Position numbers and translations under genes: made by a program. Source: Solirubrobacterales bacterium 70-9 (GTDB taxonomy: Bacteria; Pseudomonadota; Alphaproteobacteria; Acetobacterales; Acetobacteraceae). Taken from it: DNA of 64,000 nt. Shown here piece by piece: positions 10,598-52,686 of this stretch (positions are counted from its first letter, which is position 1; each line of letters starts with the position of its first letter). A model generated the notes under the pieces. It worked only from the letters and a program-made list of their open reading frames with translations, was not told the origin of the DNA and searched no databases. Location of the stretch: the NCBI GenBank assembly GCA_903970625.1, contig CAJCJG010000250.1, forward strand, positions 1-64,000, given 5' to 3'.

Positions 10598-10611
10598 CCG
10601 TCGATCCTCTC

Positions 10612-11079: not shown

Positions 11080-11158
11080 GGTATTCTCCGCCCGAACGAA
11101 CCCGCAGGGTCCAAGAATTCGTTCGTAAGCGTATGATCGGCGAGGATCAAGCGGCCGG

Positions 11159-11302
11159 TCACGCCGCCTTATCGCGCGCCTCGCATGGCTCCGCCGCGCG
11201 CACGGCTGGGGTGGTGGCCGGTACGGGCGGCGGTGGCGGTGCGGGAATGGCCGGCAGCAGCCCTTGCGCGAGCGCGATGCGGCGGAACTGGTTGGCGTGC
11301 AT
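11159..11302 (-). CDS. Small Pro/Ala-rich hypothetical protein
   Basis: A 47-residue reading frame starting at an ATG preceded by GGAGAGACCC. It begins MHANQFRRIALAQGLLPAI and continues with a run of five prolines and an Ala/Pro-rich tail. No domain is recognised. It has the same orientation as the marR-flavoprotein operon and ends 79 bp before marR, so it could be a small leader gene. Only the ribosome site and the position support it. Confidence 0.4.
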   Translation of the reverse strand: MHANQFRRIALAQGLLPAIPAPPPPPVPATTPAVRAAEPCEARDKAA

Positions 11303-11367
11303 GGGTCTCTCCGGCCTTGCTGAGTCCCATTGAAGCGACAAAAAGTGACGAAACCATGACCGTGACC

Positions 11368-11401
11368 AAAAAAAGAGGCGCCCGGTTAACGCGGGCGCCT
11401 C
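11368..11401 (-). terminator. Rho-independent terminator downstream of actP
   Basis: On the minus strand a perfect 10-bp stem (GAGGCGCCCG / CGGGCGCCTC, loop GTTAAC plus one base) is followed by a run of seven T. It sits 22 bp after the actP stop. Confidence 0.88.
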
Positions 11402-11423
11402 TCCCATCGTCGCGCCATGGTCG

Positions 11424-13094: not shown

Positions 13095-13396
13095 CAACGC
13101 TCTCCCGCCACGATTTTCCGCGTCAGCGCGTCGAACTCGCCGTTGGCGCGAAGCACATAGATGCCCGTCAGCACGATGGCGGACAGGATCACGCCTATGC
13201 CGAGGGGAAACGCCAGCGAGATGACGCCGAACACCGGCGTGCCAAGGACGCCTTTGAAGAATGCGACCAGAACGATGAAACCGTAGTAGATGACCAGCAT
13301 GATCGCCGTCAGCCACCAGCCGAATTTGCCCCGTTTCGCCTCCAGTTCGACGAAATACGGATTGTTCCTGATCCGACTTGCGGTGTCGGCCTTCAT
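13094..13396 (-). CDS. DUF485 family membrane protein (YjcH-like)
   Basis: 100 residues from an ATG with GGGAGGACAACGAT ahead. Hallmark N-terminus [23 protein letters not shown], then two hydrophobic helices ([20 protein letters not shown] and [18 protein letters not shown]) and a charged C-terminus with RANGEFD. Members of this family (YjcH) are encoded next to ActP and are thought to be its small partner subunit. The 1-bp overlap with actP indicates coupled translation. Confidence 0.93.
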
Positions 13397-13545
13397 ATCG
13401 TTGTCCTCCCGATCGGTACGCGGCGATCGTTCACCGCGTCGCGCCAAGACAGGCGCGCAATAACAGCACTCTATCCCCGTAACGGCCCGGGATGGCAATA
13501 TGCCTTGTGTCCGAGATAATAATTTACAGAAGGGAACGTCAGCCA

Positions 13546-15441: not shown

Positions 15442-15444
15442 CCG

Positions 15445-16035
15445 CTACGGTGCCACGCCCAGCGCCTGCCCGGCCGCAACCTCCCGCTGCCGGTTGCCGT
15501 CCGTCATGAATTGCAGCAATTGCGGGCGGACGGCCAGTTGGTGCTGATACAGAGTCGCCACCGCCGCCACGATCTCGCCGCGCCGGCCGAGTATCGCATC
15601 GCCCATCTCGATGATGCGCAAATTCGGCCACGCCTTCGGCCGGATGCGCAATATTTCCTGTGTGATCGCCAGCGCCGGCAAATCCGGCCGTGCCTGCGCC
15701 ACGATCAGAATCATGGACGCCGTGGAGCGCGAAATGCCGGCGTGGCAATGCACCAGCAGATGCGCGGCACCCGCCGGCTCCTTCAGCAGCGTGCGCCCGA
15801 ACGCCAGGACCTGCGCCACCTGCGCCTCGCTCGGCGCAACCATATCCGGCGCGTCCTCGATGATGTCGTGGAACCGCAGTTCCAGCCGCTCGTGTTCGCC
15901 GAACGTGCCGAACGCATCCGGCACCGGCCACGCGGGATCGAGTATCGACAGGACGTGAGTCACACCGACCGCGCCATGCTCCTGCAATTCGTCGATTCCG
16001 CAGACGGTGATCCTGAACGGAATGGTTGTGGGCAT
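15445..16035 (-). CDS. Tyrosine/dual-specificity phosphatase family protein
   Basis: 196 residues. The catalytic P-loop HCHAGISRS (Cys97, Arg103; CX5R signature) follows VLSILDPAWPVPDAF and RFHDIIED, the usual WPD-like/acid loop position in this small bacterial subfamily. It is cytosolic with no signal peptide or membrane segment. The convergent neighbour prpE ends 3 bp away. The substrate is unknown (phosphotyrosine, phosphoinositide or an arsenate-reductase-like role would need tests). Confidence 0.85.
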   Translation of the reverse strand: MPTTIPFRITVCGIDELQEHGAVGVTHVLSILDPAWPVPDAFGTFGEHERLELRFHDIIEDAPDMVAPSEAQVAQVLAFGRTLLKEPAGAAHLLVHCHAGISRSTASMILIVAQARPDLPALAITQEILRIRPKAWPNLRIIEMGDAILGRRGEIVAAVATLYQHQLAVRPQLLQFMTDGNRQREVAAGQALGVAP

Positions 16036-37356: not shown

Positions 37357-37780
37357 ATGCGCGTCGCTATCGTCGGCGCCACCGGCAATGTCCGCACCCG
37401 CCTCGTCGCCGAACTGGCCGGTCTCGGCCACTATGTCACCGCCATCGCCCGCAATGTCGCCAGCCTCGCGGCGTAGCCTAACGTAACGCCCGTCACCGGC
37501 GACGCGAGCGATCCGGCGGCGCTAGCATCATCGCTTGCCGGCCACGACGCGGTTATCAGTAGCCTGTGGTTCCTCGGCAACAACACAGCAGACCTGATCG
37601 CCGCCGGCCGCCTATTTTCTGCCGGGCGAGCGCACCGGCAAGTTCCGGCTGGGCCTGGACACGCTGATCGCCGGCCCCGATCACCAAAGTTCGATCTCCT
37701 ACGATGATTTCGCCGTCGCGGCGGCCGACGAACTGGAGGACTCGAAGCACATCAGGGCGCGCTTTACGATCGGCTACTGA
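37357..37780 (+). pseudogene. NmrA/YwnB-like NAD(P)-binding protein, degraded
   Basis: It starts MRVAIVGATGNVRTRLVAEL with an NmrA-type Rossmann motif (second Gly of the usual GNVG replaced by Arg). A TAG at codon 40 (37474-37476) interrupts it after NVASLAA, and the same frame goes on with PNVTPVTGDASDPAALASSL and ISSLWFLGN. After DLIAAG a large internal part is missing and the frame shifts; the proper C-terminus (PGERTGKFRLGLDTLIAG, then ISYDDFAVAAADELED, FTIGY) is found in another frame up to 37780. Nonsense mutation, deletion and frameshift make it a clear pseudogene. Confidence 0.85.
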
Positions 37781-40098
37781 GCCGCCACCGGCGCGTGCTG
37801 CTTCGGCTTGGCCTTCCGGCGGAGTTCCACGATCTCCGCCGCCGCCGCCGCCGCTGTCCGCACCACCTGATCGCGTCCGGCTTGGTACTGCACCGGGCCG
37901 GGCAGTGCGATGCTGTATTGCGCCGCCGCGCGCACGGTGAACGACGGATCCACCAGATGCGGGCGGCCGAGTGCCACCAGATCGGCACGGCCTGCGGCCA
38001 GGATGGTGTTGATCTGGTCGGCCGTGGTGATGCTGCCGACGCACATCGTCGCCACATCGGCGTCGTTGCGAATCTGGTCGCTGAACGGCGTCTGAAACAT
38101 GCGGCCGTAGATCGGCTTGGCATGCGGCGTCGTCTGGCCGCTGGACACGTCGATCAAATCCACGCCAGCGCGAATGAACGCGCGCGCGACCTCCACGGAA
38201 TCCTCGCCGACGATGCCGCCATCCTGCCAGTCGGTGGCGGACAGGCGTACCGACATCGGTCTGTCTGACGGCACCACGGCCCGAATCGCGTCAAAAATCT
38301 CCAGCGGGAAGCGCACACGACTTTCCAGGCTGCCGCCGTACTCGTCGGTGCGAAGATTGGTCAGCGGAGAAATGAAGCCGCCGAGCAGATAGCCGTGCGC
38401 GCAATGCAGCTCCAGCATATCGAAGCCGGCGCGCACCCCGCGTCGGGCGGCATCCACGAATGCGTCGCGCACCGCATCCATATCATCGCGCGTCATCTCG
38501 TGCGGAGTCTGACTGTCCTGATAATACGGCAAGGGCGAGGCCGCCATGATTGGCCACGCACCTTCCGGCAGCGGCCGGTCCATGCCCTCCCACATCAATT
38601 TCGTCGCACCCTTGCGGCCGGAATGGCCGAGTTGCAGACACAGCTTCGTCGAACCTTGCGCGTGCGCGAAGGCGACGATGCGTGTCCATGCCGCTTCCTG
38701 CGCGTCGCTCCACAACCCGGCGCACCCCGGCGTGATGCGCCCGGTCGGCGAGACGCACACCATCTCCGTGAACAGCAATCCGGCGCCGCCCATCGCGCGG
38801 CTGCCGTAGTGGACGAAGTGGAAATCGCCCGGCATCCCGTCGGTCGCCGAGTACATGCACATTGGGCTGACGACGACACGATTGCCGACCGTCAGCCCGC
38901 GCAGCCGAAACGGCTGGAACATCGGCGGCAATGGCTTGTCCACGTTCACGTCGAATCCGGCGGCCCGCACGTCGCGGGCAAACATCTTGTCCATCTCATC
39001 GACGAACGCCGGCGCCCGCAACCGTAGATTGTCGTAGGTGATGGATTTGGAGCGCGTCATCAGCCCGAACGCGAATTGCTGCGGGTCCATGTGCCGGAAG
39101 CGGTCCAGATGCTCAAACCACACCAGCGATACATCCGCCGCATGCTGCGTCCGCTCCACCTCACCGCGCCGCGACCCCTCGAAGTTTGCCAACGCCTCTG
39201 CGACATTCGATGTCGCACGAAAACTTTCGAACAGCGCGATGGCGTCCTCCATCGCCAGTTTGGTGCCGGAGCCGATTGAAAAATGCGCGGTCGATTTCGC
39301 ATCGCCCAGCAACACGACATTGCCCATCACGCTGCGCGCATTGCGGATCATCGGGAATTGCCGCCACAGCGAGCGGTTGGTGGTCAGCGCGTGCCCGTTC
39401 AGATCGTCGGAAAAAACGCCTTGCAGGAAGCGCGCACTCTCCGTCTCGTCCATCCGTTTCAACCCGGCACGCGCGAATGTCGCCGCGTCCGTTTCGATCA
39501 CCCAGGTCGAGCGCCCTGGTTCGTATTGGTAGGCGTGGCCGATGAAGATACCGTGTGGCGTTTCGCGAAAGCAGAACGTGAATGCATCGAGCGGCTTGGT
39601 CGAGCCCATCCAGGCGAAGCGGTTCGGCCGCAAATCGACGGACGTGCCGAAATGCGCGCGGTACCGTTCGCGCACCATCGAATTGATCCCGTCCGCGGCA
39701 ACGATCAGGTCGGACCCGGCGAACGCTTCCAGGCTTTTGACGTCTTCGGAAAACGTGAGCGTCACGCAGAGCGCGCGGCACCGCTCCTGCAACAGAAGCA
39801 ACAGCGTCCGCCGCGAGCAGCCGCAGAATCCATTGCCACCGACGCGATGCACGGTGCCCTTGAAGCGAATTTCGATGTCGTCCCAGTAGGCGAACGCTTG
39901 CGTGATGGCGCTGTAACTCGCGGGATCGTATTTTTCGAACGTCTCCAGCGTCTGGTCGGAGAACACCACGCCGAAGCCGAACGTGTCGTCCGCCCGGTTG
40001 CGCTCATGCACCGTGATGTCCAGTTCCGGCCATGTCTGCTTCATCAGGATGGCGAAATACAGGCCCGCCGGGCCGCCGCCGAGAATGGAGATTCGCAC
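37774..40098 (-). CDS. Bifunctional salicylyl-CoA/anthraniloyl-CoA monooxygenase-reductase
   Basis: 774 residues, two fused enzymes. Residues 1-~370 are a group A FAD monooxygenase: [66 protein letters not shown]. Residues ~400-750 are an Old Yellow Enzyme domain: [64 protein letters not shown] and [12 protein letters not shown]. This architecture is known from salicylyl-CoA 5-hydroxylase and 2-aminobenzoyl-CoA monooxygenase/reductase, which attack an aromatic acyl-CoA. No CoA ligase is adjacent. The divergent SDR-MarR-RidA genes probably belong to the same pathway. The 3' end overlaps the NmrA pseudogene by 7 bp. Confidence 0.92.
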
Positions 40099-40186
40099 GC
40101 TGGCTCTCCGACATCAATGAGGGTATTTTAGACTTGAAACATCTTTCTCGCAATGGTGGGATGTGGGACGGACGAGGGAGGCAGCA

Positions 40187-40948
40187 ATGGAGCCGGCGGG
40201 GCGACATGCCCTGGTCACGGGCGGCGGACGCGGCATCGGGGCTTCGATCGCGGGGGCGCTGACCGGGGCGGGCGCCGTGGTAACGGTTGTGGGCCGAAAC
40301 ACTTCGCTCCTGGCCGGCATAGTCGCGGCGGGAGACGCTGCCGGCTGGGTGCAGGCTGACGTGACGGACACAGACTCGCTCGCCACCGCCGTTGCTCGGG
40401 CCGAGGCCGCGCAGGGTCCGCTCGCTATCCTGGTCAACAACGCCGGCGCCGCCGAGACCGCCCCGCTGGCCCGCACGGATCGCGCATTGTGGGACCGGAT
40501 GCTGGCGGTCAATCTGACCTCGGTGTTCGAGGCGATGCGGCTGGTGGTGCCCGCCATGTCCGTGCGCGGCTACGGCCGCGTGGTCAACATCGCTTCCACC
40601 GCCGGGCTGACCGGCTATCCGTACGTGGCGGCCTATGTCGCGGCCAAGCACGCCGTCGTCGGGCTGACGCGGGCGCTGGCGCTCGAACATGCCAAATCCG
40701 GCGTCACGATCAACGCCGTCTGCCCCGGCTTTACCGGTACCGATCTGCTGGCCAACAGTGTCGCCTCGGTCGCGTCCAAATCCGGTCGCCCGGCCGCCGA
40801 TATTCTGGCCAGCTACGTCCGCGCCAATCCGCAAGGCCGCCTCGTGCTGCCCACGGAAGTCGCCGCTGCCGTGCTGTTCCTGTGCGGGCCCGGGTCGGGT
40901 GCGATGACCGGCCAGTCCATCGCGGTGGCCGGCGGAGAAATCCTGTGA
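40187..40948 (+). CDS. SDR family oxidoreductase of the aromatic-CoA cluster
   Basis: 253 residues from an ATG preceded by GAGGGAGGCAGCA. VTGGGRGIGASIAGALTGAG cofactor loop, VNNAGAAETAPL, Ser in VNIASTAGLTGYPYVAAYVAAKHAVVG with Tyr/Lys of YVAAK, and AVCPGFTGTDLL. Classical SDR, likely acting on a hydroxyacyl-CoA or ring-reduced intermediate made by the divergent monooxygenase-reductase. Its stop overlaps the following marR start (GTGA). Confidence 0.92.
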   Translation: MEPAGRHALVTGGGRGIGASIAGALTGAGAVVTVVGRNTSLLAGIVAAGDAAGWVQADVTDTDSLATAVARAEAAQGPLAILVNNAGAAETAPLARTDRALWDRMLAVNLTSVFEAMRLVVPAMSVRGYGRVVNIASTAGLTGYPYVAAYVAAKHAVVGLTRALALEHAKSGVTINAVCPGFTGTDLLANSVASVASKSGRPAADILASYVRANPQGRLVLPTEVAAAVLFLCGPGSGAMTGQSIAVAGGEIL

Positions 40949-41460
40949 CGGATAAAACGCCGGACGCCGAAACTCGCCTCGCCGCCGCGCCCGGCCAGCC
41001 GCCCGCCGACCATCGCGAGGAGCTGCGGCTGTGGCTGCGCTTGCTGACCTGCACCAACCTGATCGAAGGCGAGGTGCGCACCCGCCTGCGGGCAAAGTTC
41101 GACGTGACGCTGCCGCGCTTCGACCTGATGGCGCAGTTGGAGAAGGCGCCGGAGGGGCTGACGCTCGGCGATCTGTCCCGCCGTATGATGGTTTCCAACG
41201 GCAACATCACCGGGCTTGTCGAGCGTCTTGCCGAAAGCGGGCATGTGCTGCGCGTCGCGCACCCGACCGACCGGCGCATCGCCTACGTCAAGTTGACGGA
41301 GGCGGGCCACGCCGCCTTCGCCGAGATGGCGGGGGTCCATGCCGGCTGGATCGCTGGGTTGTTTTCCGCTCTGCCGCCGGCCGACCTGCGCACCCTGTTG
41401 CGCCTGCTCGGCGCGTTGAAGCAATCGGTGCGCGGGGCCAATGCCGGTGACGAGATATGA
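40945..41460 (+). CDS. MarR family regulator of the aromatic-CoA cluster
   Basis: 171 residues from a GTG overlapping the SDR stop. LRLWLRLLTCTNLIEGEVRTRLRAKFDVTLPRFDLMAQLEKAPEGLTLGDLSRRMMVSNGNITGLVERLAESGHVLRVAHPTDRRIAYVKLTEAGH is a complete MarR winged helix with DRR wing. Position between the SDR and RidA genes makes it the probable regulator of the cluster, perhaps released by an aromatic-CoA ligand as for related MarR proteins; the ligand is inference. Confidence 0.92.
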   Translation: MTDKTPDAETRLAAAPGQPPADHREELRLWLRLLTCTNLIEGEVRTRLRAKFDVTLPRFDLMAQLEKAPEGLTLGDLSRRMMVSNGNITGLVERLAESGHVLRVAHPTDRRIAYVKLTEAGHAAFAEMAGVHAGWIAGLFSALPPADLRTLLRLLGALKQSVRGANAGDEI

Positions 41461-41852
41461 CGCTGACCGTGCTGCAACCGCCCGGCTGGCCACGCCCGAA
41501 AGGCTACGCAAACGGCATGGCCGGCACCGGCCGCGTCGTCGTGGTCGCGGGCCAGATCGGCTGGGACGCGGACGGCCGGTTCGCGAACGGCCTGCCCGCC
41601 CAGATCGGCCAGGCGTTGCGCAATATCCTGGCCGTGCTGGCCGAAGCGGGCGGCGGGCCGGAGCACATCGCTCGTCTGACCTGGTACGTCACTGACATTC
41701 CGGCCTATCGCGCCAGCACGGCGGCGCTGGCGCCCGTGTGGCGCGAGGTGATGGGCCGGAACTTTCCGGCCATGGCGGTCGTCGGCGTCGCAGCCCTGGT
41801 GGAACGGGACGCGCTGGTGGAAATCGAGGCGACCGCCATCCTTCCCGATTGA
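41457..41852 (+). CDS. RidA family protein
   Basis: 131 residues with an ATGA overlap to marR. YjgF/RidA fold: PKGYANGMAGTGRVVVVAGQIGWDADGRF, LRNILAVLAEAGGGPEHIARLTWYVTDI, FPAMAVVGVAALVERDALVEIEATA (the C-terminal strand with the E-x-E/A motif). RidA proteins deaminate reactive enamine/imine intermediates; in aromatic-CoA operons they probably act on amino-substituted ring products. That would favour an anthraniloyl-CoA substrate for the divergent monooxygenase, but this is inference. Confidence 0.9.
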   Translation: MTLTVLQPPGWPRPKGYANGMAGTGRVVVVAGQIGWDADGRFANGLPAQIGQALRNILAVLAEAGGGPEHIARLTWYVTDIPAYRASTAALAPVWREVMGRNFPAMAVVGVAALVERDALVEIEATAILPD

Positions 41853-41905
41853 CCGCGCCTCGCGCCGGCGCGACGCTTGCCGCATCGCAGCATGGCGAGG
41901 GCAAA

Positions 41906-42853
41906 ATGTCGGAAATCCCGATCGTCGATGTGGCCGGACTGCGCTCACCGCATCTGCGCGAGCGGCAGGCGGTCGCCGCCGCCATGGGGCAGGCGGCGCG
42001 CGGCACCGGCTTTCTGTATGTCGTCAACCACGGCATCCCCGCGACCCTGTTGCACGCCACCTTCTCCGCCGCCAAGGCGCTGTTCGACCTGCCGGCGGCG
42101 CAGAAGCAGGCGCTGGACATCCGGCACTCCCCCCACAATCGCGGCTACGCCGGCCTCGGCACCGAGCAACTGGACGAGACGGCCGTGCCGGACCTGAAGG
42201 AAGCCTTCAACATCGGCTTCGACCTGGCACAAGACGACCCGGAATTGCTGGCGGGCGTGCCGTTTCGCGGCCTCAATGTCTGGCCCGACCTGCCCGGCTG
42301 GCGGACGACGATGCTGGCGTATTTCGACGCCTGCATGAATTTGAGCGTCATCATGCACCGGGGTTTTGCGCTTGATCTCGGCATTGACGAGGAGTTTTTT
42401 ACCGGCCTGATCGACCGCCCAATGGCCACGCTGCGGATGCTCCGCTATCCGAACCGCGACCCGGCCACGCCCTCGGACGCCTTGGGCGCCGGGACCCATA
42501 CCGACTACGGCAACATCACGCTGCTGGCGGTGGACGGGGTGCCCGGGCTTGAAGTCCGCCGCCGCGACGGGACCTGGATCGACGCGCCAACCGTGCCGGG
42601 TGCGCTAGTGGTCAATATAGGCGACTTGCTGATGCGCTGGACCAACGACATCTACATCTCGACCCCCCATCGCGTCCGCCAACCCGAAAAGCAGCGCCAT
42701 TCGCTGGCGTTCTTCCTTGACCCGAACCCGGACGCCAGCGTCTCCGTGCTGCCCGCATGCCTCCCGCCAGGCGAGACGGCGAAATACCCACCGATCACCG
42801 GCGCTGCCTATTTGCGCTCGCGGTTGGACGCCACCTACATCGGCGCCGGCTAG
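41906..42853 (+). CDS. Isopenicillin N synthase-like 2-oxoglutarate/Fe(II) oxygenase
   Basis: 315 residues from the ATG at 41906 (GGCGAGGG in front). N-terminal DIOX_N segment IPIVDVAGL ... GTGFLYVVNHGIPATLL, then the double-stranded helix core with the HxD iron ligands in GTHTDYGNITLL, LVVNIGDLLMRWTNDIYISTPHRVR containing the third His and the R-x-S-like 2OG contact region (HRVRQPEKQRHSLAFFLDPN). A soluble dioxygenase related to IPNS/flavonol synthase-type enzymes. Substrate unknown; the gene follows RidA by 53 bp in the same direction. Confidence 0.9.
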   Translation: MSEIPIVDVAGLRSPHLRERQAVAAAMGQAARGTGFLYVVNHGIPATLLHATFSAAKALFDLPAAQKQALDIRHSPHNRGYAGLGTEQLDETAVPDLKEAFNIGFDLAQDDPELLAGVPFRGLNVWPDLPGWRTTMLAYFDACMNLSVIMHRGFALDLGIDEEFFTGLIDRPMATLRMLRYPNRDPATPSDALGAGTHTDYGNITLLAVDGVPGLEVRRRDGTWIDAPTVPGALVVNIGDLLMRWTNDIYISTPHRVRQPEKQRHSLAFFLDPNPDASVSVLPACLPPGETAKYPPITGAAYLRSRLDATYIGAG

Positions 42854-43063
42854 CCGCCGACGATTCTGCGGTCACTGCTCCGGTCAACCGCGCGGCGACG
42901 TGAGGAAGGGCGGCGGATAGAGATTCGCAGCCTTATGGGACGGCGTCTTCCGGCCGATCGAAGCCCCGGATCAAGAGCATCGCCGCGGCGCCGGAGCGGC
43001 ATAGGGATTGCCTGTTGGCGTCCGTACGCGTCATACCTGCGGCGTCTCATCGGGCCAGACACA

Positions 43064-44620
43064 ATGAATTCACGCGCTACCGGTACGACACGCATCGACC
43101 TCGTCGAACTGACCGTCGCTCAGGTGCAGGCCGGGTTGACCTCCGGCGCGTTCACCTGCGAGGCGCTGACGCAAGCGTGCCTTGACCGCATCGCCGCCTT
43201 CAACCCGCACTACAACGCCATCATCTTCCTCAATCCGGCGGCACTCGACGATGCCCGTGCCGTCGACCGTAGGCGCGCGGCCGGCGAAACCCTGCCGCCG
43301 CTGGCCGGCGTGCCGGTCGTCATCAAGGACCCGATGGACATGGTCGGCTTCCCGACCACCGCCGGCTGGTCGCTTTTGCATAGTGGCACCGGCGGCGTCG
43401 ACCTGCTGCCCGCCACCGACAGCCCGGTGGTCGCCCGAATGCGGGCCGCCGGCGCCATCATGCTCGGCAAAACCAACGTGCCGGTGCTGAGCGCCAGCGG
43501 CAGCCATGCAAACGATAGCTGGGCCGGCCCGACGCTGAACGCGGCCGCGCCGGACTGCGTCCCCGGGGCCAGTTCCTCCGGAACCGCGACCGCCGTCGCC
43601 ACGTCCATGGCCGTGCTTGGGCTTGCGGAGGAGACTGGCGGCTCGATTCAGAATCCCGCCTCGGCACAGGGCTTGGTCGGCATCAAGCCCACGTTCGCCC
43701 TGGTACCGAATTCTGGGGTGGTGCCGCTGGCGAGCCAGCGGGACGTGGTGGGGCCGATCGCTCGTTGCGTGCGCGACGCCGCCTTGTGTCTCGACGTGCT
43801 CGCCGGGTTCACGATGGCGGACCCGAAAACCACGGCCAGCATCGGCAAGATCCCCAAAGGCGGCTATACCGAGCGGCTGAGCGCCACCGCCTTACAGGGC
43901 AGGCGGTTGGGCCTCTACGGGCCCGGGTGGCGCGATCAGCCGCTGTCGCACGCTACGACCGTTCTATACCAGCGCGCCCAGCGCGAGATCGCGGCGCGCG
44001 GGGCCACGCTGGTGGCCGACCCGTTTCAGGGAAGCGGGTTCGCCGGCATCGCCCGCCCCGTGCCGGGCCCCGGCCGCTTCGATGTGCGTGGACTGGAATC
44101 CTTGCCGTACGACCTGCAATGCTACCTTCAGCGCCTGGGCCCAAGGGCGGCCTTGCGCAGCTTCGCGGACTTTGCCCAGGTTACCGCAGCGCAGGACGCC
44201 TTCGGCCCCAAGGGCGTGCTACGATACCTCGCCGAGTTGCCGGCGTTTAAGGACTGTCTGGCAGACCCAAGCGTGCCCCCCGACATGTCCGAATTCGCGA
44301 CCGCTCGCGAGGCCTATCTCGACGTTTTCACCAGCGTTATGGACGCGCATCATCTCGACGCCCTGGTGTTCCCGCAGATGCGTGACCCGCTGCCGCCGCT
44401 GCATGGCGGGGAGCCGATTCATGAAACCACCGTGAGCGAGATCAACATTTCCGGCCTGCCGGGCGTTGTCGTCCCGGCTGGCGCATACGATTCCGGGTCT
44501 CCATTCTGCCTCATATTCGTCGGCCACCGATGGAGCGAGCCCGATTTGCTCGCTTTCGCATTCGACTACGAGCAGGCCACGCAGTACAGAACCGCGCCAA
44601 CCCTGACCGGCACGGCGTGA
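43064..44620 (+). CDS. Amidase (amidase signature family)
   Basis: 518 residues from the ATG at 43064. Amidase-signature core with the Ser-cisSer-Lys triad: Lys in LAGVPVVIKDPMDMVG, Ser in GASSSGTATAVATSMAVLGLAEETGGSIQNPAS (cis-Ser of GASSSG and nucleophile of GGSIQNPAS), then GIKPTFALVPNSGVVPLASQRDVVGPIARCVRDAALCLDVLAG. It hydrolyses a carboxamide; physiological substrate unknown. It follows the dioxygenase gene after a 210-bp gap and is followed 16 bp later by tRNA-Ser on the other strand. Confidence 0.93.
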   Translation: MNSRATGTTRIDLVELTVAQVQAGLTSGAFTCEALTQACLDRIAAFNPHYNAIIFLNPAALDDARAVDRRRAAGETLPPLAGVPVVIKDPMDMVGFPTTAGWSLLHSGTGGVDLLPATDSPVVARMRAAGAIMLGKTNVPVLSASGSHANDSWAGPTLNAAAPDCVPGASSSGTATAVATSMAVLGLAEETGGSIQNPASAQGLVGIKPTFALVPNSGVVPLASQRDVVGPIARCVRDAALCLDVLAGFTMADPKTTASIGKIPKGGYTERLSATALQGRRLGLYGPGWRDQPLSHATTVLYQRAQREIAARGATLVADPFQGSGFAGIARPVPGPGRFDVRGLESLPYDLQCYLQRLGPRAALRSFADFAQVTAAQDAFGPKGVLRYLAELPAFKDCLADPSVPPDMSEFATAREAYLDVFTSVMDAHHLDALVFPQMRDPLPPLHGGEPIHETTVSEINISGLPGVVVPAGAYDSGSPFCLIFVGHRWSEPDLLAFAFDYEQATQYRTAPTLTGTA

Positions 44621-44843: not shown

Positions 44844-46436
44844 CTAGCGGTCTCCACAGGGAAGCGATCCGGGGCGCCCGAATAACCAGCCCTGGCCGAA
44901 CTCCACGCCGAGTACGCGCATCAGGTGCGCCTCCTCCAGGGTCTCGACCTGTTCGGCGATCACGCGGGCGCCCACGGCCGCTGCGAGGTCCACCATCGAG
45001 GTGACGAAACTCCGCTCCCGCGTGCCCAGCGGAGCGCGGCGGACATATTGGCCGTCGATCTTCAACACATCGATCTGGAAGTCCCGCAGGTAGCGGAATG
45101 CTGCGGCGCCGGCGCCGAAATCGTCCAGGCACACGCGTACGCCATGGGCCCGCAACTCGGCGATGCGGGTGGCGGCGCCGGCCGTGTCGCCGATTTCGAC
45201 CGTCTAGGTCAGTTCGACCAGCAGGCGTCGGGCGACCGCCGGGCCTGCCTCGCGCGGGTCGGTCAGCACGCCCACGAGGCGCCGATGGAACCGCTCGTTC
45301 TGAATCGAGAGCCCTGATATGTTGACGGCAACGGCCGCGTCAGGTGCTGCGCGCAGCGCGGCCAGTGCTGTCTCGGCCACGGCACAATCCAGTTGCTCGG
45401 TGAGCCCCATCGCCTCCACCGAGACGACAAAATCCTGCGTGGTCTGCTCCGGGCCGACCAGCGGCGCGAACGGGCGCACCAGCGCCTCGCAATGATGCGT
45501 GCTTCGATCCACCAGCGAGACCACAGGCTGGTATTTCAACTGGAATTTGCGCGATAGGATCGCGTCCCGCGTCATGGCCACGCGGCCGGCGACCTCGGCC
45601 AGCACACTGGCCAGACTGCCGGTGCCGGCAACCAACCGCGCTGCCGCGATGCCGCCGGCGCGAAACTGCGACAAAGCGTAGCGCAGTGCCAGCACCGCCT
45701 GCGACGGCGCGAGCGCGGGGCTGCCCAGCGACATTCCGATGCCGTCCACCCGCGCGATACGCGCAGCGGGGCCGGCCCGGACCAAGGCGCTCAGCCGCGC
45801 GACCAGCACGTCCACCCCGCCGATATCCGACATCAGCACACCGAAGCGGCCCTCTCCGATGTCCTGTGCGGTGCCGTCCACGCCGGCCGCGCAGACCGTC
45901 TCGGCAATGCCGGCGCGCAGCACGCGCTGGTCGTCGGTGGACAATTGCGCGCGCATCTGCCGCCAGTTGCCGACCTCCACCAGCGCCAGTTCTGCTGCCA
46001 CGCCGTCGCGCAACCGAGCCTCGGCCTCACGCGCAAACGTCCGCGAGTCGTCCGCTGCCTCTGCCTCCAGGGCAGGGGCGGTCGGCACCGGCCCAAGGGT
46101 GACGCAGATGCGCGGCGGTGCGCTGGGGACGACGATGGCGGCGAAGGTAGCCTGGGTGCGCGCGCTGTCGCTGAGCCGTACCACCATTGGCTGGAGCCGC
46201 CCGCGCGCCACCAGACCGCCGAGCCCCAGGTCCAGCCCGACATGGTCGGGCGGCGCGATCAGGAAGCGCAAATGCCGCCCCACCGCCGCCTCGGGCGCGA
46301 TGCCCATGCGCTGGCGGAATGCGCCGGTGGCGAAGCGAATCAAGCCGTCCGTTGAGGCTTCCACCAACAGGTCTGCGCCGGCGAAGGCGAACGCGACAAA
46401 CCGGTCGCGTGGCGGCGCGGTGGGGCAGGGGTGCAT
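44844..46436 (-). pseudogene. PAS-degenerate GGDEF-EAL phosphodiesterase gene with in-frame amber stop
   Basis: From the probable ATG at 46436: a PAS-like domain (ADLLVEASTDGLIRFATGAFRQRMG), a GGDEF-like domain lacking the GGDEF motif (IGEGRFGVLMSDIGGVDVLVARL), and an EAL domain starting KFQLKYQPVVSLVDRSTHHCEALVRP with EAL intact, VNISGLSIQNERF, then ARRLLVELT. At 45204-45206 a TAG replaces the expected Glu of the LTE motif. The same frame continues TVEIGD ... VCLDDFGAGAAAFRYLRD, LKIDGQYVR, VIAEQVET to a stop at 44844. The only visible lesion is that amber codon (GAG to TAG). Read-through would restore a c-di-GMP phosphodiesterase fold, but with a substituted metal ligand unless Glu is inserted. 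Confidence 0.88.
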
Positions 46437-46550
46437 GCGGACGGATGCTGGGCGTGTGCGGTTAAGCGTGCGTGAAGGATGGGCTGGATATGGGAGCGTT
46501 ACTGCCCCATGTTTCGTGCATCGTTTCACGCAGATTGATCGAGCCGTTCG

Positions 46551-47471
46551 ATGACGCCGCTGCCCACGCCGCAACAGCTTCGCTACCTGCTGGCGCTAGC
46601 CGAACACCGCCATTTCGGCCGCGCGTCGGCGGCCTGCGCCGTCACCCAATCGACGCTCTCGGCCGGAATCCTGGCATTGGAGCGGCAGTTGGACTCGCAT
46701 ATCCTCGACCGCGACGGCGCCAAGCGGGTGGTGTTCACCACGCTCGGCCGCGAACTGGTCGGGCGGGCGCGGGCGGCGATGGCCGCGCTGTCGGCGATCG
46801 TGGAGGCGGCGGACGCGGCGCGCGCGCCGATGACCGGGCCTCTGCGACTGGGCGTGATCCCGACCGTCGGCCCGTTCCTGCTGCCGCGCTTCATGCCGGG
46901 GCTGCGCGAGGCGTTTCCTTTGCTGAGGCTGTATCTGCGCGAGGACACGACGGAGCGGCTGGTGGACCGGCTGGCGGGCGGGCAACTGGACGTCGCGCTG
47001 CTGGCGCTGCCGTGTGACTGCGGCGAGGCGGAGAGCTTTCCGGTGGTCCGCGACCCGTTCGTGGCGGCGCTGCCGCCCAACCATCCGCTCGCCGCCCTGT
47101 CGTCGGTGCCGGCTGCGGCGCTGGCTGGCGAGCGCCTGTTGTTGCTTGAGGACGGACATTGCCTCCGCGATCAGGCGCTGGCGGCCTGCGGCGTGGCGCG
47201 GCGCGACGATCACGATGGGTTCGCTGCCACCAGCCTCCACACGCTGGTGCAGATGGTGGCCGGTGGCCTGGGCGTGACGCTCCTGCCGCAACTGGCTGTC
47301 GATGCAGGGGTGGCGGAGGGTACGGATATCGTGCTGCGCCCGCTGGCCGGGGCCGGAGCGTGGCGGACACTCGGTTTCGCGTGGCGGCCGCACACGCCGC
47401 GGGCGGCGGACTACCGGGCGCTCGGGACCGTGCTGGAGCGGGCTTGCGGCCCGCTCATCCCTACGGCCTAA
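46551..47471 (+). CDS. oxyR: Hydrogen-peroxide sensor OxyR (LysR family)
   Basis: 306 residues. LysR HTH (TPQQLRYLLALAEHRHFGRASAACAVTQSTLSAGILALERQL) and an effector domain with LLLLEDGHCLRDQALAACG. Cys204 and Cys213 have the same 9-residue spacing as the redox Cys199/Cys208 pair of E. coli OxyR, which forms a disulphide on peroxide exposure. This distinguishes it from generic LysR proteins. No catalase or peroxidase gene is adjacent; the neighbours are a broken EAL gene (divergent) and a peptide ABC operon (31 bp downstream). Confidence 0.93.
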   Translation: MTPLPTPQQLRYLLALAEHRHFGRASAACAVTQSTLSAGILALERQLDSHILDRDGAKRVVFTTLGRELVGRARAAMAALSAIVEAADAARAPMTGPLRLGVIPTVGPFLLPRFMPGLREAFPLLRLYLREDTTERLVDRLAGGQLDVALLALPCDCGEAESFPVVRDPFVAALPPNHPLAALSSVPAAALAGERLLLLEDGHCLRDQALAACGVARRDDHDGFAATSLHTLVQMVAGGLGVTLLPQLAVDAGVAEGTDIVLRPLAGAGAWRTLGFAWRPHTPRAADYRALGTVLERACGPLIPTA

Positions 47472-47501: not shown

Positions 47502-49088
47502 ATGCACAGGCGTCTGATCGCGGCCCTCGCCGCGTTGCCACTGGTTGCGGCACCTGCTGCCTTTGCCGCCACGCCGCCCGATACTGTGGTGATCGCCAAG
47601 CAGATCGATGACATCATCTCTCTCGACCCCGGGGAGGACTACGAACTGTCGGGCGTCGAGATAGCTACCAATATCTACGACCGGCTGTTGCGCTACGAGG
47701 CGGAGGATGTGACCAAGCTGGTCGGCGGCGTGGCCGAAAGCTGGACCATCACGCCGGACGGGAAGGTCTTCACCTTCAAGCTCCGCCCGAACCAGGTATT
47801 TCAGGACGGCGCGCCGCTGACGGCCGACGATGTGGCGTTCTCGCTGCAACGGGTCGTCATTATGGACAAGACGCCCGCCTTCCTGCTGGACCAGCTCGGC
47901 TGGACCGCCGCCAACGTGAAGGATCTGGTGAAGGCGACGGCGCCCGATACGCTGCAATTCACCATCACCGCCGACCTCGCGCCCTCGCTGGTGCTGAACC
48001 TGATGACCTCCATCGTCGCCTCCGTGGTCGAGAAGAAGGTCGCAATGGAGCATGAGGTGAACGGCGACTTCGGCAATGCGTGGCTGAAGGCGCACTCGGC
48101 GGCGTCCGGCGCGTATAAGCTGGTCGCGTGGAAACCGAACGAGAGTGTTATCCTCGACGCCAATCCGAAATTTCGCCTCGGCGCACCCTTCAATCGGCGC
48201 GTGATCGTGCGGCATGTCCCCGAGACGGCGTCGCAGTTGCTACTGTTGGAAAAGGGCGATGTCGACATCGCGTTCAACCTGTCACCCGACCAGTTGACCA
48301 CGCTGAACGGAAACAAGGACGTAAAGGTGGAGTCGTTTCCTGGTTCCGACAGTTGGTATATGTCGATGAACGTGGCTGACAACCGCCTGAAGAATCCGAA
48401 AGTACGGCAGGCGCTGAAATATCTGGTGGACTACGACGGAATGGTGAGCAGCTTCCTGAAGGGCAGGTTCTTCACCCATGAGACGTTCTTGCCGCAAGGC
48501 TTTCTCGGCGCGTTGGACTACAATCCGTTCAAGCTCGATCTGGCAAAAGCGAAGTCGTTGCTCGCCCAGGCGGGCTATCCGGACGGCTTCGAGTTGAAGA
48601 TGGACGCGCCGAACACCTCGCCGTTCACCGAAATCGCGCAATCGGTACAACAGACGTTTGGCGAGGCGGGGATCAAGGTCAGCATCGTCCCCGGTGAACT
48701 GAAATCCGTCATCGGCGTCTATCGCGCGCGCAAACACCAGTTGCTGCTGGTGTCGTGGGGCCCGGACTATTTCGACCCGCACACCAACGCCGACAGTTTC
48801 GCCCGCAACACCGACAATTCCGACAAGCCGGCGACCAAGCCGCTGGCGTGGCGCAATTCCTGGTACATTCCGGAGATCAGCAAGGAAACTGCTGACGCGG
48901 CCAAGGAACTGGACACCGCGAAGCGCGTCGCGCTGTACGAGGATTTGCAGCGCAAGGTGACGGACGAGGGGCCGTTCATTCTGATGTTCCAGACGGCGCA
49001 GCCGATCGCCTCGCGCGCCAACGTCACCGGCTTCAGGGCTGGGCTGACCGAGGACATAACGTTCTACCGCCTGACCGCAAAGCATTAG
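47502..49088 (+). CDS. ABC transporter substrate-binding protein, peptide/opine family 5
   Basis: 528 residues with a Sec signal peptide (MHRRLIAALAALPLVAAPAAFA). Mature family-5 binding protein: DTVVIAKQIDDIISLDPGEDYELSGVEIATNIYDRLLRY, VAESWTITPDGKVFTFKLRPNQVFQDGAPLTADDVAFSLQR (family signature), NPKVRQALKYLVDYDGMV, LLAQAGYPDGFELKMDAP. It captures peptides, opines or similar solutes in the periplasm for the following permeases. First gene of a five-gene importer operon. Confidence 0.94.
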   Translation: MHRRLIAALAALPLVAAPAAFAATPPDTVVIAKQIDDIISLDPGEDYELSGVEIATNIYDRLLRYEAEDVTKLVGGVAESWTITPDGKVFTFKLRPNQVFQDGAPLTADDVAFSLQRVVIMDKTPAFLLDQLGWTAANVKDLVKATAPDTLQFTITADLAPSLVLNLMTSIVASVVEKKVAMEHEVNGDFGNAWLKAHSAASGAYKLVAWKPNESVILDANPKFRLGAPFNRRVIVRHVPETASQLLLLEKGDVDIAFNLSPDQLTTLNGNKDVKVESFPGSDSWYMSMNVADNRLKNPKVRQALKYLVDYDGMVSSFLKGRFFTHETFLPQGFLGALDYNPFKLDLAKAKSLLAQAGYPDGFELKMDAPNTSPFTEIAQSVQQTFGEAGIKVSIVPGELKSVIGVYRARKHQLLLVSWGPDYFDPHTNADSFARNTDNSDKPATKPLAWRNSWYIPEISKETADAAKELDTAKRVALYEDLQRKVTDEGPFILMFQTAQPIASRANVTGFRAGLTEDITFYRLTAKH

Positions 49089-49092
49089 CGGT

Positions 49093-50115
49093 TTGTACGG
49101 GATCGGCCGGCGTGTCGCGCGCACGCTGGTCTCGATGGTGTTGACGTTTCTCGGCCTCACCGTCGTCACATTTTTCATCGGCCGGGTGATCCCGATCGAC
49201 CCGGCGCTGGCCATTGTGGGGTCGAAAGCCTCTAACGAGACGTACGAGCGGGTGCGGGCGGAAATTGGGCTCGATCTGCCGCTGCCGGTGCAGTACTGGC
49301 GCTATCTGGCAAAGGTGCTGCACGGCGATTTCGGAACGTCGGTGATCACGTCGCAGCCGGTATTGACGGACATGCTGAGCGTGTTTCCGGCGACGTTGGA
49401 ACTAGCGCTGCTGGCGTTGCTGATCGGCGCAGTGGGCGGCGTGCCGCTGGGCGTGGTGGCGGCGACGCATCGTGGGCGATGGCCGGACCATCTGACGCGG
49501 CTGCTGTCACTGTTCGGCTATTCGATGCCGGTGTTCTGGCTCGGGCTGGTGGGGCTACTGCTGTTCTACGCCAAGCTCGGGTGGGTGGAGGGCCCGGGGC
49601 GGATAGATGTTGGCTACGAGGACATGGTGCCGACTGTGACCGGGCTGCTGACCGTCGATGCGCTGCTGGATGGCGACTACGACGTATTCCGGAACGCGCT
49701 GAGTCATCTGGTGCTCCCGGCCTCGATCCTCGGCTATTTGTCGCTCGCGTACGTGGCACGCATGACGCGCGGCTTCATGCTGGGGCAGTTGCGGCAGGAA
49801 TACGTGCTGGCGGCCAAGGCAAAGGGCCTGAGCCAGTGGCGCGTGGTGTGGGTCCACGCGCTCGGCAACGTGTGGGTGCAACTGATCACCGTCATCGCAC
49901 TGACGTTCGGCAGCCTGCTGGAAGGGGCGGTGCTGACGGAGACGGTGTTTTCCTGGCCCGGCCTTGGCCTCTACATGAAAAACTCGCTGTTCAACGCGGA
50001 CCTGAACGCCGTGCTCGGCGGCACGGTTATGGTGGGGGTGGCGTATATCCTGCTGAACCTGATCTCCGACCTTTTGTATCCGCTGGTCGACCCGCGCGCG
50101 CGGGAGCGGACGTGA
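49093..50115 (+). CDS. ABC transporter permease, DppB/OppB type
   Basis: 340 residues from a TTG four bases after the binding-protein stop. Six membrane helices; N-terminal ARTLVSMVLTFLGLTVVTFF and the IGLDLPLPVQYWRYLAKVLHGDFGTS segment are typical DppB. The EAA loop AKAKGLSQWRVVWVHALGNVWVQLITVIAL contacts the ATPases, and GAVLTETVFSWPGLG closes the signature. Forms the inner-membrane channel with the next gene product. Confidence 0.94.
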   Translation: MYGIGRRVARTLVSMVLTFLGLTVVTFFIGRVIPIDPALAIVGSKASNETYERVRAEIGLDLPLPVQYWRYLAKVLHGDFGTSVITSQPVLTDMLSVFPATLELALLALLIGAVGGVPLGVVAATHRGRWPDHLTRLLSLFGYSMPVFWLGLVGLLLFYAKLGWVEGPGRIDVGYEDMVPTVTGLLTVDALLDGDYDVFRNALSHLVLPASILGYLSLAYVARMTRGFMLGQLRQEYVLAAKAKGLSQWRVVWVHALGNVWVQLITVIALTFGSLLEGAVLTETVFSWPGLGLYMKNSLFNADLNAVLGGTVMVGVAYILLNLISDLLYPLVDPRARERT

Positions 50116-51014
50116 GTGGCGCGACGATGCGGGCTTGGCTGCTAGACCCGGCGCCGGCCAGCCGGCGGCAGGCGCGGTGCGGGCGCTGGTTTCGGGCGTG
50201 GCTGGGGTTTTCGAGTAATGGGCTGGCGATGACCGGATTGGCCATCGTCGTGGCGCTGGTGCTGATCGCAGTGTGTGCGCCGCTGATCGCGGGTTCGCGC
50301 GCGGCGACGTTGCAGTCGTTGGGCGACAGGCTGCAACCGGCCTCGCGCGCGCACTGGTTCGGTACCGACGAACTGGGCCGCGACATTTTTGCCCGTACTG
50401 TGTTCGGCGCGCGGATCACGCTGACCATCGTGGCGCTGGTTGGCGCCATCGTGGTACCGGTGGGCTTGGTGATCGGGCTACCGGCTGGCTATTTCGGGGG
50501 CGCGGTCGATGCCGTGCTGATGCGGCTGACGGATATTTTCCTGGCGTTCCCGCGGCTGGTGCTGGCGCTGGCGTTCGCGGCAGCGCTGGGGCCGGGGATC
50601 GACAATGCGGTGGTCGCCATCGCGTTGACGACATGGCCGCCTTACGCCCGTTTGGCGCGGGCGGAGACGCTCACCCACCGCCACGCCGAATTCGTGCAGG
50701 CGGCCGTGCTGCAAGGCGCATCGCGCACCAGCATCCTGTTCCGGCAGATCCTGCCGCTGTGCCTGCCCTCTGTTCTGATCCGCCTGACGCTGGACATGGC
50801 GGGGATCATCATTACCGCCGCCGGGCTGGGCTTTCTCGGCCTCGGCGCGCAACCGCCGGCGCCGGAGTGGGGCGCGATGGTCGCCTCCGGCCGACAGGTG
50901 CTACTTAACCAATGGTGGGTGGCGACGATTCCGGGCATCGCGATTTTCGTCACCTCGGTCGGCTTCAACCTGCTGGGCGATGGGCTGCGCGACGTGGCGG
51001 ACGCGCGCGGATGA
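50112..51014 (+). CDS. ABC transporter permease, DppC/OppC type
   Basis: 300 residues from a GTG overlapping the dppB-like stop by 4 bp. SSNGLAMTGLAIVVALVLIAVCAPLIAG (helix 1), HWFGTDELGRDIFARTVFGARITL (DppC signature), YFGGAVDAVLMRLTDIFLAFPRLVLALAF, and the EAA loop AAVLQGASRTSILFRQILPLCLPSVLI. Second transmembrane subunit of the peptide-type importer. The stop overlaps the next ATG. Confidence 0.94.
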   Translation: MSGATMRAWLLDPAPASRRQARCGRWFRAWLGFSSNGLAMTGLAIVVALVLIAVCAPLIAGSRAATLQSLGDRLQPASRAHWFGTDELGRDIFARTVFGARITLTIVALVGAIVVPVGLVIGLPAGYFGGAVDAVLMRLTDIFLAFPRLVLALAFAAALGPGIDNAVVAIALTTWPPYARLARAETLTHRHAEFVQAAVLQGASRTSILFRQILPLCLPSVLIRLTLDMAGIIITAAGLGFLGLGAQPPAPEWGAMVASGRQVLLNQWWVATIPGIAIFVTSVGFNLLGDGLRDVADARG

Positions 51015-51850
51015 GCACTTTACTGACCGTTCGCAATCTGTGGGTGACGCATCCCGGCGACCAGGGCGATTTTGTCGCCGTTCGCAACGTGAGTTTTTCG
51101 CTGGGGCGCGAGCGGCTTGGCATCGTCGGCGAATCCGGCTCCGGCAAATCGACCACCGGCCGCGCGATCATGGGGCTGGTGGGCGCCCTAGGCCGGGTAC
51201 AGGCGGAGGAATTGCGGCTGGGCGAGACCGATCTTCTTGCCTTGTCCGAGCGCGGCTTCCGCAAGCTGCGTGGGCGGCGGGTGGCGATGGTGTTGCAGGA
51301 TCCGAAATATGCGCTGAACCCAGTTATGAGCATCGGCCACCAGATCGCCGAGACGCATCGGGCGCACATGCGCGCGGGCAGCCGCGCGGCGCGGCTGGCG
51401 GCCCTGAAAATGCTGGAGGCGGTGCGCATTCGCGATCCGGAGCGGGTATACGGACTGTATCCGCATCAGGTCTCGGGTGGCATGGGCCAACGGGCGATGA
51501 TCGCCATGATGCTGATCGCCGAACCGGAACTGCTGATCGCCGACGAGCCGACCTCCGCCCTGGATGCGACCATTCAAACGCAGGTGCTGGCGATCCTCGA
51601 CGAACTTGTGCGCGTGCGCGGCATGGGGCTGATGCTGATCAGCCACAACCTGCATCTAGTGTCCGCGTTCTGCGACCGGGTGCTGGTGATGTATGCTGGC
51701 CGCGTGGTGGAAGCCTGTGACTCCGGGCGACTGCACCAAGCGCAACATCCCTACACGCGCGGGCTGCTGGCGGCGTTGCCGGAGCTTGGGCATCGGCGGG
51801 ACATTTTGCCGCAATTGCAACGCGATCCGGCCTGGGCGGCGGGGGCTTGA
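51011..51850 (+). CDS. ABC transporter ATP-binding protein, DppD/OppD type
   Basis: 279 residues, ATGA overlap with the permease gene. Walker A GIVGESGSGKSTTGRAIMGL, Q-loop MVLQDPKYALNPVMSIGHQI, signature VSGGMGQRAMIAMMLI (GG-M-G variant common in OppD), Walker B ELLIADEPTSALDATIQ, and the switch His in LMLISHNLHLV. The C-terminal HPYTRGLLAALP is the oligopeptide-ATPase tail. Energises the importer with its DppF-like partner. Confidence 0.94.
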   Translation: MSTLLTVRNLWVTHPGDQGDFVAVRNVSFSLGRERLGIVGESGSGKSTTGRAIMGLVGALGRVQAEELRLGETDLLALSERGFRKLRGRRVAMVLQDPKYALNPVMSIGHQIAETHRAHMRAGSRAARLAALKMLEAVRIRDPERVYGLYPHQVSGGMGQRAMIAMMLIAEPELLIADEPTSALDATIQTQVLAILDELVRVRGMGLMLISHNLHLVSAFCDRVLVMYAGRVVEACDSGRLHQAQHPYTRGLLAALPELGHRRDILPQLQRDPAWAAGA

Positions 51851-52599
51851 TCCGGCTCGACGGCGTGACTGTCCGTTACGGCCATGGCCGCCACGCCATC
51901 GTCGCGGCGCACGGCATTTCGTTCAGCGTTGCTCGCGGGGCGGCTTATGGATTGGTGGGGGAGTCCGGAAGCGGCAAATCCACGGTGCTGCGCGCCGTTG
52001 CCGGGCTGATCGCACACGCCGGAGGACGGGTGGAACTAGCAGGACAGGCGATGCCGGCGAATCGGACGCGACCGCAGCGGCGGCTGGTGCAGATGGTGTT
52101 CCAGGATCCTTACGGCTCGCTGCATCCGAACCAGACGGTCGATCAGGCACTGGCCTCGCCGTTGCGCGTACAAGGGCTGGACGGCGGCGAGGCACGCATC
52201 GCAGCGGCATTACGGGAAGTCGGATTGGGTACCGAGCACCGTTTTCGCTTCCCGCATCAACTTTCGGGTGGACAGCGGCAGCGCGTGGCCATCGCGCGGG
52301 CGCTGATCGTGGCGCCGCGCATCCTGCTGCTGGACGAACCGACCAGCGCACTGGATGTCTCCGTCCAGGCCGAAATCCTGAACTTGCTGACCCGCCTGCG
52401 CCGGGAACATGGGCTGACGATGCTGATGGTGAGCCACGACTTGGCCGTGATAGCGCATCTATGCGAGCACGTCGGCGTGATGCAACACGGGCGGCTGGTG
52501 GAACAGACGACCGCCGACGCGCTGGCCGCCGGCGCGGTGTCGCACGACCACACCCGCGATTTGCTCCTCTCGAACGCGAGCTTCGACCGACGGGTTTGA
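51847..52599 (+). CDS. ABC transporter ATP-binding protein, DppF/OppF type
   Basis: 250 residues from a TTG overlapping the previous stop (TTGA). Walker A GLVGESGSGKSTVLRAVAGL, Q-loop QMVFQDPYGSLHPNQTV, signature LSGGQRQRVAIARAL, Walker B ILLLDEPTSALDVSVQ, switch MLMVSHDLAVIAHLC. Second ATPase of the heterodimeric motor and last gene of the operon. Slightly short at the C-terminus compared with typical 300-plus-residue DppF. Confidence 0.93.
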   Translation: MIRLDGVTVRYGHGRHAIVAAHGISFSVARGAAYGLVGESGSGKSTVLRAVAGLIAHAGGRVELAGQAMPANRTRPQRRLVQMVFQDPYGSLHPNQTVDQALASPLRVQGLDGGEARIAAALREVGLGTEHRFRFPHQLSGGQRQRVAIARALIVAPRILLLDEPTSALDVSVQAEILNLLTRLRREHGLTMLMVSHDLAVIAHLCEHVGVMQHGRLVEQTTADALAAGAVSHDHTRDLLLSNASFDRRV

Positions 52600-52686
52600 C
52601 TCGGGGCCTGTGAGGCTGGCCGTCTGATTGAGATCAAATTTGCGCGGACAGATGGCCGAAACAGTAGAAATCCCGAATCACCGTAG

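Follow-up and report, generated by a model that had tools for sequence, protein, structure and literature searches.

In the aerobic 2-aminobenzoyl-CoA pathway of Azoarcus evansii, a fused monooxygenase/reductase acts on the coenzyme A (CoA) ester and is followed by steps resembling β-oxidation (available sections of PMC4539516). In Variovorax and Bradyrhizobium, the iad loci for auxin degradation contain iorA and iorB homologues together with iadI, which is annotated as a kynurenine formamidase, and they pass through isatin and isatinic acid; the end product reported in the accessible parts of both papers is anthranilate (PMC9613470; PMC12633357). Among the genes of auxin loci, Conway et al. 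list homologues of iorA and iorB, and the accessible part of their paper gives no step to them (PMC9613470). In Aromatoleum, phenylglyoxylate, a 2-oxo aryl acid, is decarboxylated to an aroyl-CoA, benzoyl-CoA, without a ligase; that route is anaerobic and its substrate carries no amino group (available text of PMC9765128). Here we describe a locus at positions 37774-44620 of a stretch of 64,000 nucleotides from Solirubrobacterales bacterium 70-9 (the whole stretch is called the window below), in which a fused flavoenzyme stands beside a short-chain dehydrogenase/reductase (SDR), a MarR-type regulator and a RidA-type protein. Unlike in the A. evansii pathway, as far as the available text describes it, no such CoA ligase was found here, and an isatin hydrolase and IorA/IorB are the proposed source of the CoA ester. 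We put at about 0.48 the probability that the ester in this genome comes from isatin via isatin hydrolase and IorAB and feeds the 2-aminobenzoyl-CoA core, rather than being made from anthranilate by a ligase.

The fused-enzyme core and the proposed entry through isatin

Six genes lie within 37774-44620, the fused enzyme on the minus strand and the five others divergently on the plus strand. The fused enzyme (37774..40098, 774 aa) joins an FAD monooxygenase to an Old Yellow Enzyme (Pfam FAD_binding_3 and Oxidored_FMN), and over residues 1-755 it scored 1109 bits against the curated cut-off of 1078 for NF006101 (bifunctional salicylyl-CoA 5-hydroxylase/oxidoreductase). On this basis it belongs to the family of 2-aminobenzoyl-CoA monooxygenase/reductases or salicylyl-CoA 5-hydroxylases, and its substrate is a prediction from family membership. 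On the plus strand follow the SDR (40187..40948, Pfam adh_short), the MarR-type regulator (40945..41460, Pfam MarR) and the RidA-type protein (41457..41852, Pfam Ribonuc_L-PSP), with reading frames overlapping by 4 bp both between SDR and MarR and between MarR and RidA.

At least 594 relatives of the fused enzyme were found by a pattern scan across 84,980 species genomes. The 80 best loci were retained, and partners were counted in those 54 that had been fetched with a length of 20 kb or more. The SDR was present in 51 of these 54, MarR in 50, RidA in 48, a ligase in 46, a hydratase in 45 and an acyl-CoA dehydrogenase in 32. The typical set comprised the fused enzyme, SDR, MarR, an enoyl-CoA hydratase of the PRK08258 type, an acyl-CoA dehydrogenase, an AMP-binding ligase and RidA. 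The cluster ligase is close to the benzoate-CoA ligase family, the one that was scanned (from locus L035) scoring 369.9 bits against a cut-off of 375.25. The preliminary description had taken fused enzyme, SDR, MarR and RidA for a known set, which agrees with these counts, and had expected ligase, hydratase and thiolase genes beside them; the first two are indeed usual, but the acyl-CoA dehydrogenase rather than a thiolase is, thiolase not being among the usual partners in the related loci. It had further described those three genes as replaced here by an oxygenase and an amidase. They are missing, no ligase, hydratase or thiolase gene being present in 37774-44620, but the bare unit of enzyme and SDR-MarR-RidA recurs in four other loci (L031, L034, L037 and L038), none of which has a ligase, a hydratase or a dehydrogenase, nor the oxygenase or the amidase of the window. 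The layout of the window is therefore not a one-off replacement. The suggestion that RidA favours an amino-aromatic substrate is plausible, since RidA regularly accompanies such enzymes (48 of 54) and would fit an enamine intermediate; the substrate itself is a prediction.

The genes for the proposed entry were found on two other contigs of the same assembly. A cyclase on contig C304, outside the window, had as its best match isatin hydrolase A (5nnb, E 1e-118), with 164 of 255 residues identical to the isatin hydrolase A of Labrenzia, and it kept 10 of the 11 active-site residues named in the available text of PMC6117287, the exception being Y204F. Judged by its sequence, the cyclase is an isatin hydrolase. 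IorB and the cyclase lie together on contig C304 (92% identity to the congener, G001); IorA lies on contig C347 and is 89% identical to the IorA of that congener. IorB exceeded the cut-off of NF006179 (indolepyruvate oxidoreductase subunit beta) with 700 against 348 bits. IorA contains a thiamine-pyrophosphate domain and remained below the cut-off of TIGR03336 (indolepyruvate ferredoxin oxidoreductase alpha; 271.7 against 650.9 bits), so that its score gives no ground for assigning it the indolepyruvate activity of the family name. In the congener, IorA, IorB and the cyclase share a contig with the fused-enzyme core; behind the core lie, besides other genes, a TauD-like oxygenase and a LysR regulator (both named by eye), the cyclase, IorB and IorA. 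Contig C347 stops just past IorA and C304 starts just before IorB, and both end in opposite copies of one palindromic element recognized by eye (L159 9816-9893 on C347; L164 1-32 on C304), which suggests that the assembly broke between neighbouring IorA and IorB genes. None of the 16-mers of these two contig ends occurs in the window. From the iad set, only IorA, IorB and the isatin hydrolase were found on C347 and C304, and this distinguishes the genome from the iad loci described in the accessible parts of PMC9613470 and PMC12633357. A search for a Rieske homologue, confined to the window and the portions of C347 and C304 that were fetched, gave none.

In the order of steps that we infer, the isatin hydrolase would open isatin, which arises when indole and plant auxin are degraded, to isatinate (2-aminophenylglyoxylate), and IorA/IorB, as a thiamine-dependent 2-oxoacid oxidoreductase, would convert isatinate and CoA to 2-aminobenzoyl-CoA by oxidative decarboxylation, with no ligase needed. 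Because isatinate is a 2-oxo acid, this ester would be the product of a 2-oxoacid oxidoreductase that used it together with CoA. The phenylglyoxylate route of Aromatoleum uses another oxidoreductase than IorAB. The module of enzyme and SDR-MarR-RidA would then be the core of the aerobic route through 2-aminobenzoyl-CoA: the fused flavoenzyme would hydroxylate and reduce 2-aminobenzoyl-CoA to a 5-oxo-cyclohexene CoA ester, the SDR may reduce the ketone of this 5-oxo product, and RidA may assist in the loss of the amino group by way of an enamine. The neighbouring 2-oxoglutarate (2OG) oxygenase and amidase would have other jobs. With slightly greater caution still, we hypothesized that the IorA/IorB associated with isatin hydrolases in aerobic bacteria, including the homologues in auxin loci, are decarboxylating isatinate:CoA oxidoreductases, by which auxin and indole might enter the 2-aminobenzoyl-CoA pathway without a ligase or free anthranilate, anthranilate being a side product. 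If this is true, IorA/IorB of the auxin-degradation loci gain a job and the ligase step is spared, a different end product is to be predicted for the breakdown of auxin and indole in many soil and marine Proteobacteria, and a missing ligase is no proof of a broken pathway, as the CoA ester can come by another route. The pathway itself is a known bacterial route for the degradation of compounds of the anthranilate type, and its entry through isatin is possibly new; no statement of the step from isatinate to 2-aminobenzoyl-CoA was found in the open-access literature consulted, and an earlier proposal may exist.

Linkage and co-occurrence in other genomes

IorA and the fused enzyme lay within 15 kb of each other in 7 of the 49 genomes having both, where random placement would give about 0.35. 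Two of these seven genomes belong to one genus. L037 and L090 are two further linked loci. The fullest arrangement was seen in genome G260, where one locus carries a Rieske oxygenase, isatin hydrolase, IorAB, RidA, acyl-CoA dehydrogenase, hydratase, MarR, SDR and the fused enzyme; this 19.9-kb stretch holds no ligase, and a search of the whole genome for the cluster-type ligase, with three candidates scored, gave no match at E≤1e-110. Plasmids were sampled through 50 records with IorA, 8 of the 25 listed being opened: the fused enzyme was within 14 kb of IorA in three of these eight regions and absent from that distance in the other five, and an isatin hydrolase was present in seven. On a plasmid of Caballeronia sp. 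SBC1, IorA, IorB, a thioesterase and the fused enzyme stand in a row with an isatin hydrolase homologue 5 kb further, and no ligase homologue was found in 30 kb. A plasmid of Azospirillum thermophilum carries, in one direction, IorAB, a Rieske oxygenase, an AMP-binding gene, the fused enzyme, a hydratase, a dehydrogenase and RidA, and on a plasmid of Alloyangia pacifica the fused enzyme lies 5 kb from an isatin hydrolase and 8 kb from IorA.

Two of these plasmids hold further genes of some interest. After the fused enzyme of Caballeronia sp. SBC1 (plasmid pSBC1_4, L243 14001-26387) come cupin and fumarylacetoacetate-hydrolase genes, as if for a gentisate-like continuation. Near the fused enzyme, isatin hydrolase and IorAB of Alloyangia pacifica (L242 1196-17706) there is a styrene/indole monooxygenase gene, as if indole and not auxin were the entry.

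Co-occurrence was examined among 100 relatives and in a held-out sample of the class. Of the 57 genomes with a match to the fused enzyme, 27 were kept (own genome included) and 30 dropped, having one half only or the halves as separate genes; for the cluster ligase, 23 of 38 genomes with a match were kept (at least 47% identity) and 15 at 32-39% dropped. The fused enzyme was present in 14 of the 15 relatives with IorA. In the held-out sample, 35 of the 61 genomes with the fused enzyme had IorA, as did 17 of about 281 without it (p 8e-19), with genome size and relatedness not controlled and with an approximate total of 342, that is, 385 minus the handles below G100. IorAB is thus a frequent partner of the fused enzyme, also where the ligase is kept, and it is the best candidate source of the ester seen in the genome studied here.

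The relation between IorA and the ligase was less regular. Among the 100 relatives, IorA was found in all five enzyme genomes without the cluster-type ligase and in 9 of 22 with it (p 0.025). A rule that genomes without the ligase have IorA held in this group and failed in the held-out class sample, and it was given up. Three of the 71 enzyme genomes of the class sample (64, 78 and 99% complete) had neither IorA nor the cluster-type ligase, and in the most complete of them, G378, the cluster itself contains a different benzoate-family ligase, beside an amidase. In the tree of the fused enzyme, the eight rows without the cluster-type ligase needed 7 changes, against a shuffled mean of 7.5, with genome-contig rows counted in without a ligase test; the tree is uninformative.

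The CoA ligase and other sources of the ester

The absence of a CoA ligase from the cluster, pointed out in the preliminary description, was borne out, and a genome search for a 2-aminobenzoate- or salicylate-CoA ligase returned none of the benzoate type in an assembly that is 93.6% complete (378 contigs). Among the family members with the fused enzyme, 14 of 18 (own genome included) carry a homologue of the cluster ligase at 53-74% identity. Here the cluster-type ligase (query from L035) had no match at E≤1e-60, and no 2-aminobenzoate-CoA ligase of the Azoarcus-type pathway was identified in the assembly. There are 12 AMP-binding places in the genome. Compared with the cluster ligase, 11 are at most 32% identical; the remaining one, on contig C47, is a contig-edge fragment without a match to that ligase at E≤1e-3. 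None of these places exceeded the cut-off of the benzoate-CoA ligase family, the best reaching 251 against 375.25 bits. Six of the AMP-binding proteins were scanned, and three of them passed the cut-offs of other families (acetate-CoA ligase and two fatty-acid/acyl-CoA types).

The main rival explanation is that an ordinary ligase activates anthranilate, either a benzoate-family ligase in the unassembled part of the genome or one of its unassigned AMP-binding enzymes. We regard this as doubtful, yet as a serious competitor. It is in its favour that the congener G001 and genome G057, in which the cluster-type ligase is likewise missing, each encode a different benzoate-family ligase at another place in the genome (scores of 743 and 718 bits against 375.25), because of which the genome studied here may have such a ligase in its unassembled part, and that G378 holds one inside its cluster (473 bits). 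Moreover, three of the six scanned AMP-binding proteins (C172, C264 and C250) passed no family cut-off, and in relatives with a compact core the ligase is often unlinked, as in G011, G021 and G052. The label of ligase absence is itself leaky, because the search looked for relatives of one ligase (L035) only. Other genomes scored as free of the cluster ligase differ in what is behind the score: G084 remained below the family cut-off (259 against 375.25 bits), G005 had no ligase match at E≤1e-60, and the status of G260, G352 and G371 comes from the cluster-ligase search, with three candidates per genome at E≤1e-110, and not from the family model. Against an ordinary ligase stand the low scores of the AMP-binding places of the genome itself and the presence of IorAB and isatin hydrolase, which elsewhere are linked to such cores.

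Besides these ligases, several observations weigh against an entry through isatin. IorAB and the fused-enzyme core are on different contigs in this genome, and searches of the PDB with IorA and IorB gave no solved relative. IorA also occurs in 17 genomes of the class sample without the fused enzyme. In the held-out sample, IorA was found in 3 of 6 enzyme genomes without the cluster-type ligase and in 32 of 55 with it, and when both samples were joined the figures were 8 of 11 and 41 of 77 (p 0.19). Some of the linked loci contain a ligase or a possible one: L090 keeps a ligase next to IorAB, the Alloyangia pacifica region holds one 53% identical to the cluster type, and the AMP-binding gene in the Azospirillum thermophilum run is 28% identical to the cluster ligase. 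Finally, nine iad genes (iadC-K2) restored anthranilate in Variovorax, and iadA/iadB are absent from the available part of that text (PMC12633357).

A second rival would have the amidase and the 2OG oxygenase make the aromatic substrate, in one operon with the fused enzyme; we consider this improbable. The 2OG-Fe(II) oxygenase of the DIOX_N type (41906..42853, plus strand; Pfam DIOX_N and 2OG-FeII_Oxy) and the amidase-signature hydrolase (43064..44620, plus strand; Pfam Amidase) do share the strand of SDR-MarR-RidA, at spacings of 53 bp from RidA to the oxygenase and 210 bp from the oxygenase to the amidase. However, no homologue of the oxygenase was found at E≤1e-5 near other fused enzymes in the loci searched, including the 80 kept from the scan, and the best match in the congener is at 38%. 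Closer orthologues (59-66%) occur in 4 of the 100 relatives; three of these have no fused enzyme, and G006, the fourth, carries the oxygenase and the fused enzyme on separate contigs. The genes flanking the orthologues, for which 3-13 kb of flank was available, included none in common with the window. The 2OG oxygenase is a neighbour and not part of the conserved module. In the congener, the core and the gene for isatin hydrolase have between them a TauD-like oxygenase (by eye; L161 3936-5465), which differs from the 2OG oxygenase of the window.

For the amidase, which had been thought able to release the aromatic acid, the neighbourhoods of its relatives point elsewhere. The closest plasmid relatives (63-67% identity, in Burkholderiales, Paracoccus and Shinella) adjoin ABC transporters of the urea/branched-chain type in all six annotated regions opened, a seventh region without annotation being left out, with an ANTAR regulator in four and a formamidase in three. 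The match to the indoleacetamide hydrolase model, which would speak for a role as substrate source, is below threshold (207.8 against 532 bits). Distant amidases do occur in five other loci (32-38% identity in L055, L083 and L085, which are among the 80 loci; 32-45% over the five with L135 and L214), and in L214 the amidase adjoins the fused enzyme, but a benzoate-family ligase is present in the cluster as well. By its relatives, the amidase is probably an enzyme of amide nitrogen and a neighbour only. Amidase and oxygenase were accordingly rejected as a replacement of the ligase, neither being conserved beside the fused enzyme and the close amidase relatives standing with transporters of the amide/urea type. 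The arrangement in L214 (from G378; 8495-15780) is of a different kind, with another sort of benzoate-family ligase after the SDR and a PRK07056-type amidase gene end to end with the fused enzyme.

It is likewise unlikely that the fused enzyme acts on salicylyl-CoA rather than 2-aminobenzoyl-CoA, as the NCBIfam family name (salicylyl-CoA 5-hydroxylase) would suggest, and that the isatin genes are unrelated to it, since the regular presence of RidA and the linkage of isatin hydrolase and IorAB to the enzyme in several genomes both point to an amino-aromatic substrate.

Control region and neighbouring genes

The fused enzyme and the SDR are separated by a divergent intergenic region of 88 bp (40099..40186), presumed to be a shared control region for both directions. 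Adjoining the amidase, an EAL-domain gene (44844-46574, minus strand) appears to be split: 45204-46574 encodes roughly half of the EAL domain, and EAL-like residues, recognized by eye, go on in another frame at 44844-45155, by a frameshift or an assembly error. The transporter that precedes IorA in relatives matches the transporter run of the window at one permease only (35%); this run, at 47502-52613 after a LysR regulator, resembles an ABC transporter of the peptide type.

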